From assembly GCF_013752535.1 (NCBI RefSeq), contig NZ_CP058348.1, positions 1,984,001-2,048,000 on the forward strand: a DNA stretch of 64,000 bases. Reading direction: 5' to 3'. The DNA comes from Bdellovibrio sp. KM01. Its GTDB lineage: Bacteria > Bdellovibrionota > Bdellovibrionia > Bdellovibrionales > Bdellovibrionaceae. Below are positions 36,493 to 38,826 of this stretch, piece by piece. The notes beneath the pieces were generated by a model. The model saw only the letters and a program-made list of their open reading frames with translations. It ran no database searches and was not told where the DNA came from. A program made the position numbers and the translations under genes. Position 1 is the first letter of the stretch, and each line of letters opens with the position of its first letter.

Positions 36493-36595
36493 TCCGCCCC
36501 GCGTACCCTCGTCCAGAACACGATTCTTAAATCCAATAATAAAGACGCAAAACTGGGCCTCATCTCCAATATATTGATTTAAAGCTTAAATAAAG

Positions 36596-36612
36596 TCGGC
36601 ACCGTTCCTGCT
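36596..36612 (+). promoter_or_regulatory. Sigma-54-like promoter of the peptide cassette
   Basis: TCGGCACCGTTCCTGCT has GGCAC with the invariant GG at 36598-36599 and TGCT with the invariant GC at 36610-36611, which is the correct -24/-12 spacing of 12. Three of the less critical positions differ from YTGGCACG-N4-TTGCW. Transcription would start near 36623, giving a short leader with AAAGGAG before the ATG at 36657. No enhancer-binding protein gene is adjacent. Confidence 0.6.
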
Positions 36613-36656
36613 CTATCCCTAATCAACTAAGCCAATCACGGCATAAAGGAGATACC

Positions 36657-36800
36657 ATGAACAAATTCGAAATTTTTGAAAACATTATCGCTGAAAGAAA
36701 CAAATCTGGAACTGGCGTTCGCGCAGTTCTGGAAAAATCCAGCATCCCCGCAGAAGTTCAAGAAATCATGAACTCTCGCAAAGCGAAAAAGAAAAACTAG
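36657..36800 (+). CDS. 47-residue peptide, candidate precursor
   Basis: Too short for most gene finders. The product starts MNKFEIFENIIAERNK, continues through GTGVRAVLEKSSIPAEVQEI and ends in MNSRKAKKKN. The first half looks like a helical leader, and the second has a Pro and a strongly basic tail. There is no signal peptide. An AAAGGAG site lies 6-7 bases before the ATG, and a sigma-54-like promoter and a terminator hairpin surround it. It is followed by a 2OG-Fe(II) oxygenase and an ABC exporter. That layout suits the precursor of a modified peptide, with Pro, Asn or Lys as possible hydroxylation targets. No known precursor family is recognised; it could also be an unrelated regulatory peptide. 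Confidence 0.7.
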   Translation: MNKFEIFENIIAERNKSGTGVRAVLEKSSIPAEVQEIMNSRKAKKKN

Positions 36801-36810
36801 TTTTTCTTTT

Positions 36811-36842
36811 AAAGGGAGAGGCCCCCCTCCTCTCCCTTTTTT
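36811..36842 (+). terminator. Intrinsic terminator/attenuator between peptide and oxygenase
   Basis: AAAGGGAGAGG-loop-CCTCTCCCTTT followed by TTT, ten bases after the peptide stop and 24 before the oxygenase ATG. A hairpin in this place usually lets the first short gene be made in excess over the downstream genes. Confidence 0.85.
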
Positions 36843-36865
36843 AATTTCTAACACTGAGCAAATCT

Positions 36866-37456
36866 ATGAACTCATCTTTTCTACAAAACACTTCGGTAAA
36901 TGAATTTCAAACTCCCTGGAATCATTTTGTAATTGACAACTTTCTTCCCCAGAAACAATTCAAAAAAATCCAAAAGCATCTTTGCTCGGTAGTTGACGGT
37001 TATCAGAAAAGAGAAAACGATTCATTCGATTTAAATTTTATGTTCGTCCCCGACCTTAACCTCGCCAAACTATTCTTGGGCGACGATTTCAAATCTTTCC
37101 TGGAAGAAACAGTTCAGGAAAAACTCGAATTGTACGAAGAAGGCCTCGTTCAATTAAGAATGATGACTCCCGACTCCCCTGCAATGCCACCTCATATCGA
37201 CGACCAGGAAGATGGACGATCTCTCGTTTGCATCTATTATCTGTCTCCCGACTGGAACTCTGACAAAGGTGGCGAATTATGGCTTCATCAAGACACCGTC
37301 AAAACTAAAAGAAAAGAATCAAAAGTAATTCAACCTTTGGAAAACAGAATGGTGCTGTTTTTCGCAGATGATACAAACTGGCACAGCGTCACCAAAGTCA
37401 AAAACTGGAATCGCTATTCCATCATTTCAGAATGGATTGTTCAGGAGGCTCGATAA
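36866..37456 (+). CDS. 2-oxoglutarate/Fe(II)-dependent oxygenase (prolyl-hydroxylase type)
   Basis: A 196-residue protein of the P4Hc-like 2OG-Fe(II) dioxygenase family. The iron site is complete: PPHIDDQED supplies His110 and Asp112, and NWHSVTKV supplies His173; Arg183 (NRYSII), ten residues on, is placed to bind 2-oxoglutarate. GGELWLHQD forms the jelly-roll strand between them. It would hydroxylate a substrate. The 47-residue peptide just upstream is a natural candidate, though substrates of this family also include ribosomal proteins and EF-Tu. Its stop shares one base with the start of the ABC gene (TAATG), a sign of coupled translation. Confidence 0.88.
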   Translation: MNSSFLQNTSVNEFQTPWNHFVIDNFLPQKQFKKIQKHLCSVVDGYQKRENDSFDLNFMFVPDLNLAKLFLGDDFKSFLEETVQEKLELYEEGLVQLRMMTPDSPAMPPHIDDQEDGRSLVCIYYLSPDWNSDKGGELWLHQDTVKTKRKESKVIQPLENRMVLFFADDTNWHSVTKVKNWNRYSIISEWIVQEAR

Positions 37457-38796
37457 TGTTTTCCCCCTCAGTATTGAAGTATGTCGACAAGGTTTCCCAG
37501 ATAAAACTTATTGGAGTTACGACTTGCCAACAATTGGTGGCTGTCACAAGTACTTTCGCTTTAATGAAGGCGGGCCTTGCTTTAGGTGATCAGAATTCTA
37601 TGAGCCTGTGGCTAGGACTCGCCCTTGTCTGCCATGTCGTTGTCCCATTTTTTGGCTTGATTCAACGTCCTCTGGAAACCGCTCTGGGATTTTCAGCCTA
37701 CAAAAGATTTCTGGAAGAAAATCTTTTAAGCAAAGCTAAAAGACCCGGTATTTGGCAGGAGAAGCATCAAAAAGAACTGTTCACTTCGTCCATTGGTTCC
37801 GAGGCGGAAAACTATTTGGCCGTGATCATCTTTTTAGGTCTGGATCTTTTTACTTTCATCCTTTCCATCAGTCTGGGGGTTTTAGTCATTGGCCTGACAT
37901 TGGATACTTCATTTATTCCAGCGTATATTGCGTCTGGCTTGTTTTCGTTTTTCGCATTCAAATACTTTCAGAAAATCGCAAAGTCAGCGGCCGAGTCCGA
38001 GCAACAATCCCGAAGCAAGTTCGAAAGCTACCTATTTAAAGCCTGGGAAAATATCTTCTTCAAAAACTCTGAAGTGGTTGCCAACTACATCAAAAACTTT
38101 AATTCCCATCTAAATGATGCTAAGGAAAAATCTCGTCACTCTTCCTTGATGAGCGAGACCATGGTGGCGGCTTTAACGTTTATCGCAAGCCTTCCAGTTA
38201 TTGTTGCCGTCTTCGTGGTTATCAGCCGACATAACGGGGATGTTAAAGTGATGGCGGCCCTTTTGGCTGCGATTCCTCGACAGTTAAACATGCTGGCTAC
38301 TTTTAGAACAATCTTCCAAACTATTTCTTCTCTGGTTTCTTTCGAAGCGAAGCTCAAAACTATGAAGGGCAATGCGGTCCTTTCGGAACCTGTTCTTTCT
38401 TCGCGTATTTCTATTAAAAACATCACAGTGCAAAATGATGCTTTCGCTTCGCTGGAAGATTTGTCAAAGTCTGTATCTTTATCCAAACCTTCCAGAATTC
38501 AAATTAGAGGATCCAACGGCGCGGGAAAATCGACTTTGATGCTGCACCTTAACGAATCACTTGAATCCTCATTTTACATTCCAGCACATCCACAGTTTGA
38601 GTTTGAAGATGCAGAGGAAGGCTCAACGGGACAAAAAATGCTAAGACATATCGAATATGCCGCTTCATTAGATAATAAACATCTTTTACTGGACGAATGG
38701 GATGCGAACTTGGATCAAGAAAATATTTTGAAGATCAATGAACTATTGAACAGGATCAGCAAAGACAAAGTGATCATTGAAGTTCGTCACCGATAA
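37456..38796 (+). CDS. Compact ABC exporter with STGQ/DEW motifs (cyclic-peptide exporter type)
   Basis: A 446-residue fused membrane/ATPase protein. About six hydrophobic segments occupy residues 15-300. The ATPase has GSNGAGKST at 352-360 (Walker A), HPQFEF (Q-loop), GSTGQK (signature, about 390), LLLDEWDANLD (Walker B, Asp413-Glu414) and EVRHR with His445 as H-loop. STGQ and DEWxA-x2-D are also seen in SyrD/PvdE-type cyclic-peptide exporters. The span from Walker A to the signature is only about 38 residues against about 100 normally, so the helical subdomain is much reduced. No peptidase C39 domain. Start 37456 is set by AGGAGG and the TAATG overlap with the oxygenase. Confidence 0.82.
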   Translation: MFSPSVLKYVDKVSQIKLIGVTTCQQLVAVTSTFALMKAGLALGDQNSMSLWLGLALVCHVVVPFFGLIQRPLETALGFSAYKRFLEENLLSKAKRPGIWQEKHQKELFTSSIGSEAENYLAVIIFLGLDLFTFILSISLGVLVIGLTLDTSFIPAYIASGLFSFFAFKYFQKIAKSAAESEQQSRSKFESYLFKAWENIFFKNSEVVANYIKNFNSHLNDAKEKSRHSSLMSETMVAALTFIASLPVIVAVFVVISRHNGDVKVMAALLAAIPRQLNMLATFRTIFQTISSLVSFEAKLKTMKGNAVLSEPVLSSRISIKNITVQNDAFASLEDLSKSVSLSKPSRIQIRGSNGAGKSTLMLHLNESLESSFYIPAHPQFEFEDAEEGSTGQKMLRHIEYAASLDNKHLLLDEWDANLDQENILKINELLNRISKDKVIIEVRHR

Positions 38797-38826
38797 TAAA
38801 AAAGCCCGGGTTCGCCGGGCTTTTTC
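38797..38826. terminator. Bidirectional intrinsic terminator
   Basis: AAAAAAGCCCGGG-TTCG-CCGGGCTTTTT right after the ABC exporter stop and next to the mpl end. TTCG is a stable tetraloop. Confidence 0.9.

Follow-up and report, generated by a model that had tools for sequence, protein, structure and literature searches.

Bdellovibrio sp. KM01 carries a three-gene cassette that we consider likely to be a minimal RiPP-type operon, in which a 47-aa peptide would be hydroxylated by a 2OG-Fe(II) oxygenase and exported by a compact ABC protein. The cassette lies on the plus strand at 36596-38826 of the window, which is the whole stretch of 64,000 nucleotides that was analysed, and the source genome is a single contig of 3.96 Mb. 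A check of the sequence gave the order peptide, oxygenase and ABC gene, each at the coordinates first claimed. The end of the oxygenase gene and the start of the ABC gene overlap in TAATG at 37454-37458, and a terminator hairpin (AAAAAGCCCGGG..CCGGGCTTTTT, 38799-38826), common to the convergent mpl gene, closes the cassette. Both the junction and the terminator had been described in an earlier note made from the letters of this DNA, and both were confirmed. That note had also proposed that a ribosomally made peptide undergoes hydroxylation and export; the core of this proposal is well supported by comparative evidence, while hydroxylation and secretion are steps that we infer. The reading as a minimal RiPP operon is drawn from gene order, conservation, selection, the promoter element, a hairpin, the enzyme fold and the catalytic residues.

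The peptide (MNKFEIFENIIAERNKSGTGVRAVLEKSSIPAEVQEIMNSRKAKKKN) is encoded at 36657-36800 (plus strand), and the good ribosome-binding site ascribed to it was found as AAAGGAG at 36645-36651 on the same strand. When this single peptide was used to query 100 related genomes, six congeneric matches were found beyond the window (98, 49, 48, 40, 39 and 35% identity), and all of them lay directly 5' of the oxygenase and ABC orthologs, the oxygenase being a remnant in the genome G004. An eighth copy of 35 aa, in G020, was read by eye before the oxygenase/ABC pair and was later matched by a peptide profile. Because this profile was built from the same eight copies, it tests specificity and not discovery. 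It found nothing else convincing in 66 genomes of the family, where the best non-cassette match (E 0.014) fell inside a 239-codon frame. The arrangement typical of a RiPP cluster, a short conserved precursor gene beside a modifying enzyme, was found for all eight peptides, each directly 5' of the oxygenase and/or ABC gene.

Only five positions are invariant among the eight peptides, including G20, L25, I30 and P31, and the Ile-Pro motif is kept in the G004 copy as well. The middle of the alignment is conserved and the C-terminal tail is variable. Between G000 and G012, synonymous and non-synonymous codon changes numbered 6 and 1 in the peptide, 38 and 17 in the oxygenase, and 122 and 52 in the ABC gene. 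Judged from its sequence, the peptide is under purifying selection at its codons, and these changes together with the conservation indicate that it is a translated and selected product and not a chance frame. The earlier note had asked for peptide homologs beside oxygenase/ABC pairs, and held that a lack of conservation, or relatives without a short upstream frame, would speak against the peptide. The search gave seven further congeneric copies, all before cassette genes, and in silico both comparisons favoured the peptide.

The three genes also behave as one cassette, as had been suggested. Peptide and ABC gene occur together in 8 of 24 congeneric genomes, with an intact oxygenase in seven of these eight carriers, and the other 16 genomes lack all three genes. 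In G004, the peptide and the ABC gene are intact and the oxygenase has been cut to remnants by a deletion (L068 5990-6164), which indicates that the oxygenase is not strictly required for the persistence of the others. The cassette adjoins mpl in G000, G012 and G010. In G022 and G011, mpl is followed directly by a convergent TPR regulator with a terminator alone between them, and the cassette is located elsewhere; in the remaining carriers it is flanked by yet other genes. Since the chromosomal sites differ between congeners where this was tested, the cassette appears to be a block that moves as a unit.

This distribution bears on the role of the product. The cassette might be toxin-like or selfish, encoding a bacteriocin against relatives or prey competitors that spreads horizontally, with the ABC protein also giving self-immunity. 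Its patchy occurrence, the variable sites (beside mpl in three genomes, with that site empty in G022 and G011), a mostly cationic peptide (six of the eight orthologs have a charge between +1.6 and +4.6) and a structural match of the ABC protein to McjD are all consistent with such a role. However, the cassette lacks an immunity gene of its own, the G022 peptide is not cationic and the G020 peptide only barely, and signals and other accessory clusters are typically patchy too. We regard the toxin role as rather unlikely; it has the same chemistry as the minimal RiPP operon and would be a special case of it.

The cassette is preceded by a candidate sigma-54 element, TCGGCACCGTTCCTGCTC, at 36596-36613 (plus strand), with the -24 GG at 36598-36599 and the -12 GC at 36610-36611. 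Before each of the eight peptides the best-scoring site was the -24/-12 element, at a distance of 29-50 nt to the ATG and with a score of at least 17.1, whereas only 4 of 105 control genes had a sigma-54-like site reaching 17. The scoring weights were set by ourselves from the textbook consensus after the sequences had been seen, so the contrast with the control genes is the fair measure. The genome holds one sigma-54 gene, and an RpoN-like factor has been reported in B. bacteriovorus (PMC11209729). These features are those expected of a sigma-54-dependent operon in 8 of 8 orthologs, and agree with the earlier suggestion of a sigma-54-driven cassette. A possible enhancer-like stretch, CGATTCTTAAATCCAATAATAAAG, lies 5' of the element at about 36520-36545 and is common to G012 and G018. 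A conserved upstream enhancer motif, seen by eye as approximately CGATTCTYAAATCCAATAATWAAG in G000, G012 and G018, gained no support from an alignment of all eight upstream regions.

Between the peptide and oxygenase genes, a hairpin followed by a T run was found at 36811-36839 (plus strand; the intergenic stretch has a predicted folding energy of -17.4 kcal/mol), which the earlier note did not list. It recurs with differing stem sequences in seven of eight orthologs, the exception being G011, which fits an attenuator that keeps precursor output above that of the enzyme. It is a probable attenuator or terminator that would give more peptide than enzyme mRNA.

The ABC gene (37456-38796, plus strand) encodes a protein of 446 aa in which the Walker A motif GxNGxGKST, an S[ST]G[QE] signature and LLLDEWDANLD are conserved in 8 of 8 orthologs. 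Its AlphaFold model (AF2 pLDDT 84.2) has an exporter fold like those of IrtB, PCAT1 and McjD. The predicted six-helix membrane domain, combined with Walker A, signature and Walker B, suggests a type IV ABC exporter. The Pfam model PF00005 (ABC_tran) missed its gathering cut-off (24.2 versus 25 bits), and the match covers only positions 5-34 of 137. In the window protein the signature follows Walker A after about 39 residues, and in those members of the wider family with a recognisable signature the gap is 37-48; this spacing is roughly 100 in standard ABC proteins. From this short gap, the nucleotide-binding domain is read as reduced, with the helical subdomain missing. The protein opens directly with membrane helices and has no N-terminal C39 peptidase domain. 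The earlier note was correct on this point, and also in that no recognised leader, double-Gly or other known cleavage site was found in the peptide orthologs; the cassette likewise has no protease gene. The note had further matched the STGQ and DEW motifs to cyclic-peptide exporters. The motifs are present, but membership of that family was refuted, since TIGR01194 matches 57 places in the genome (weakly) and the ABC gene is not among them.

At E<=1e-15, the exporter family was found in 25 of 369 genomes of the phylum, covering 15 genera, and its distant relatives occur in Bdellovibrionota and on plasmids of Acinetobacter, Moraxella and Methylophaga. The plasmid relatives are annotated merely as 'ATP-binding protein' or 'hypothetical protein'. 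Of the 21 distant loci that could be read, roughly 16 have a maturase-type neighbour; L071, L072, L081 and L173 have none evident, L077 being the remaining locus. The group of the window protein has good support in the ABC tree, where L071 and L072 cluster with G020. aKG-HExxH peptide beta-hydroxylases (TIGR04267) scored above the cut-off beside the exporter in five of the six Bdellovibrionota loci tested (L074, L079, L080, L111 and L113), and the sixth, L073, reached 32.9 versus 40. Further HExxH neighbours were recognised by sequence resemblance in L075, L078 and L110, and an Acinetobacter plasmid gene is annotated as HEXXH. Tetrapyrrole-type methylases, whose fold is the one that borosins use, adjoin the exporter together with radical SAM genes (L076, L115) or with 2OG oxygenases (L073, L116). 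In L112, a ryptide-like radical SAM maturase (5.6e-68, under its equivalog cut-off) follows a 54-aa peptide. On Methylophaga and Moraxella plasmids, DUF6875 and short peptides are found beside the exporter. Four distant precursors (L074, L111, L112 and L113) likewise have their best sigma-54-like site 28-51 nt upstream. The exporter family appears to serve several different RiPP-type cassettes. We slightly favour the view that the ABC protein represents an undescribed peptide-exporter family with a minimal nucleotide-binding domain, devoid of the helical subdomain, that serves several unrelated RiPP-type cassettes in Bdellovibrionota and on gammaproteobacterial plasmids. In this genus it would be paired with a prolyl-hydroxylase-like enzyme as sole maturase, which would make the cassette a new sigma-54-controlled class of hydroxylated peptides from predatory-lineage bacteria.

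Several observations were made on these distant clusters. Precursor-like peptides accompany the HExxH and compact ABC genes at L074 2909 (reverse), L079 3383, L111 2631-2753, L113 1123 (reverse), near L110 2366 and at L174 4812-5027. Their C-terminal core resembles M[IN]MIAFD (HLIMIAFDEMNAK in L113, RMAAFD in L110, RMIAYED on the Acinetobacter plasmid), and they apparently form a separate, cross-phylum RiPP family. Between their HExxH and ABC genes, L074, L075, L079 and L111 each encode a protein of some 365 aa that contains a HVNVHDHDFSAVQFQLKG stretch (judged cupin-like by eye); Pfam and NCBIfam gave no match for the L079 copy. On the Moraxella osloensis and Methylophaga plasmids (L172 3159-3281, L175 5071-5229), DUF6875 lies between the short peptide and the compact ABC gene, the peptides end in PPRPPVTPWRW and DCGWGGGWSW, and DUF6875 may be an unrecognised peptide-modifying enzyme. 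RRLLNVIPVDIEALL-like stretches in peptides of the tetrapyrrole-methylase clusters (L116 5017-5172, minus strand and approximate; L073 4928-5272; L115 940-1089) resemble the Ile-Pro motif of the window peptide by eye. An unbiased profile test gave no support for homology, so this likeness is kept as a lead only.

The oxygenase gene (36866-37456, plus strand) encodes 196 aa and matches PF13640 (3.1e-15). The residues H110, D112, H173 and R183, which the earlier note had found intact, are invariant across the seven oxygenase orthologs. In the AlphaFold model (AF2 pLDDT 87.7) the HxD...H triad and the 2OG-binding Arg sit in a prolyl-4-hydroxylase-like fold, with structural matches to PolD (Z 20.9), OGFOD1 (20.0), PasI (about 19), Tpa1 (18.4), PHD2 (17.9) and a Pseudomonas P4H (17.1). 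Those with protein substrates hydroxylate proline; the substrates of PolD and PasI are small molecules. The nearest NCBIfam models, YhhC (NF041706, 4e-10) and FlmC (NF052475), were both below cut-off (39.6 versus 150 bits for the YhhC equivalog and 24.6 versus 240 for FlmC). PADLOC matches (a generic 2OG model and the Mad3/Mad8 ATPase) were dismissed as generic similarity. The oxygenase profile at E<=1e-15 found 10 of 369 genomes of the phylum, in nine of which the gene lies near an ABC gene of the exporter family, and the plasmid search gave no oxygenase relative.

The most likely single target of the oxygenase would be the invariant Pro31 of the Ile-Pro motif, since the enzyme fold is that of peptide and protein prolyl hydroxylases; we put the probability of this site just short of even. 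A tentative but appreciable possibility is that the enzyme modifies another residue (Asn, Asp, Lys or Leu), or acts by desaturation or crosslinking, with Ile-Pro serving only as a recognition element or leader. RiPP oxygenases modify many residue types, G004 keeps the motif without an intact oxygenase, and of the distant peptides with a similar motif by eye one has no 2OG enzyme beside it. Helices also often begin with Ile-Pro-x-Glu, so this proline could have a structural or recognition role. Against another target stand the top structural neighbours with known protein or peptide substrates, all prolyl hydroxylases, the place of proline among so few invariant positions, and the negative profile test for the distant motifs.

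It is also conceivable, and in our view quite improbable, that the peptide stays in the cell as a small regulator of, or chaperone for, the oxygenase and ABC proteins, and that the ABC protein moves, out or in, some unrelated small molecule in whose synthesis the oxygenase takes part. The lack of a leader or cleavage site, the appearance of the peptide as two short helices and the small-molecule substrates of the best structural match, PolD, and of PasI would fit a regulator. In contrast, the orthologous cassettes contain no further biosynthetic gene, distant relatives of the ABC protein pair with peptide-modifying enzymes and precursor-like peptides, and the peptide has its own terminator-like hairpin, which is frequent after precursor genes.

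For the minimal RiPP operon, the following course is proposed. The sigma-54 promoter, recognised by its conservation, would switch the cassette on through an enhancer-binding activator encoded elsewhere. The hairpin after the peptide gene may attenuate read-through into the enzyme genes and leave the peptide in excess. The oxygenase would then hydroxylate the peptide, and the compact ABC protein, probably as a homodimer, would export it. Trimming, if any, would fall to a protease whose gene lies outside the cassette; alternatively, the product may be exported uncut. It would probably be released by this predatory-lineage cell as a signal or antagonist.

If this is true, the cassette adds a peptide family with a prolyl-hydroxylase-like oxygenase as its only modifying enzyme, and the DEWDANLD minimal exporter gives a sequence handle for RiPP-type cassettes now annotated just as 'ATP-binding protein'. 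Such a small transporter is of a type that standard libraries fail to recognise, in a cassette that is conserved and mobile within the genus. A nucleotide-binding domain pared down in this way, with no helical subdomain, would be a test of which parts an ABC exporter requires to couple ATP to transport, and a sigma-54-controlled secreted peptide in a predatory lineage would be a candidate signal or weapon. Open-licence literature on Bdellovibrio RiPPs and on prolyl-hydroxylase RiPPs gave no description of the cassette. The libraries and open papers that were searched contained no combination of a P4H-type enzyme alone with this minimal exporter, an absence that is not proof of novelty.

The logic of precursor, Fe/2OG enzyme and transporter is already known from RiPPs. 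The window ABC protein is like cyclic-peptide exporters of the PvdE/SyrD/YojI type (TIGR01194) in its variant signature and in the DEW that follows Walker B, but it does not match their model. It resembles McjD, PCAT1 and IrtAB-type exporters in overall membrane fold and ATPase motifs, but has 446 aa versus about 570-700, and has neither a C39 peptidase nor a helical subdomain. The oxygenase is like PHD2, OGFOD1, Tpa1 and bacterial prolyl 4-hydroxylases in fold and active site, and its putative substrate contains Ile-Pro; those enzymes take proteins as substrates, HIF and ribosomal protein S23 among them, whereas the putative substrate here is a 47-aa peptide encoded next door. aKG-HExxH RiPP clusters (TIGR04267), for example those of PflC/PosC (PMC12636437) and PesO (PMC13060819), likewise combine a short precursor, an Fe/2OG hydroxylase and a transporter, and the compact exporter family has HExxH neighbours in several Bdellovibrionota genomes and on one Acinetobacter plasmid. 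A precursor proline is hydroxylated by PesO, an HExxH enzyme, which sets a precedent for this modification among RiPPs (PMC13060819). In contrast to these clusters, the window hydroxylase is of the P4H type, with an HxD...H site and not HExxH, and the peptide family is different. The RiPP 2OG-Fe(II) oxygenases YhhC, named as acting on a cyclophane-containing peptide, and FlmC are the best NCBIfam matches; the window enzyme scores far below their cut-offs, its cassette lacks a radical SAM gene for cyclophane formation and has the oxygenase as its sole modifying enzyme.
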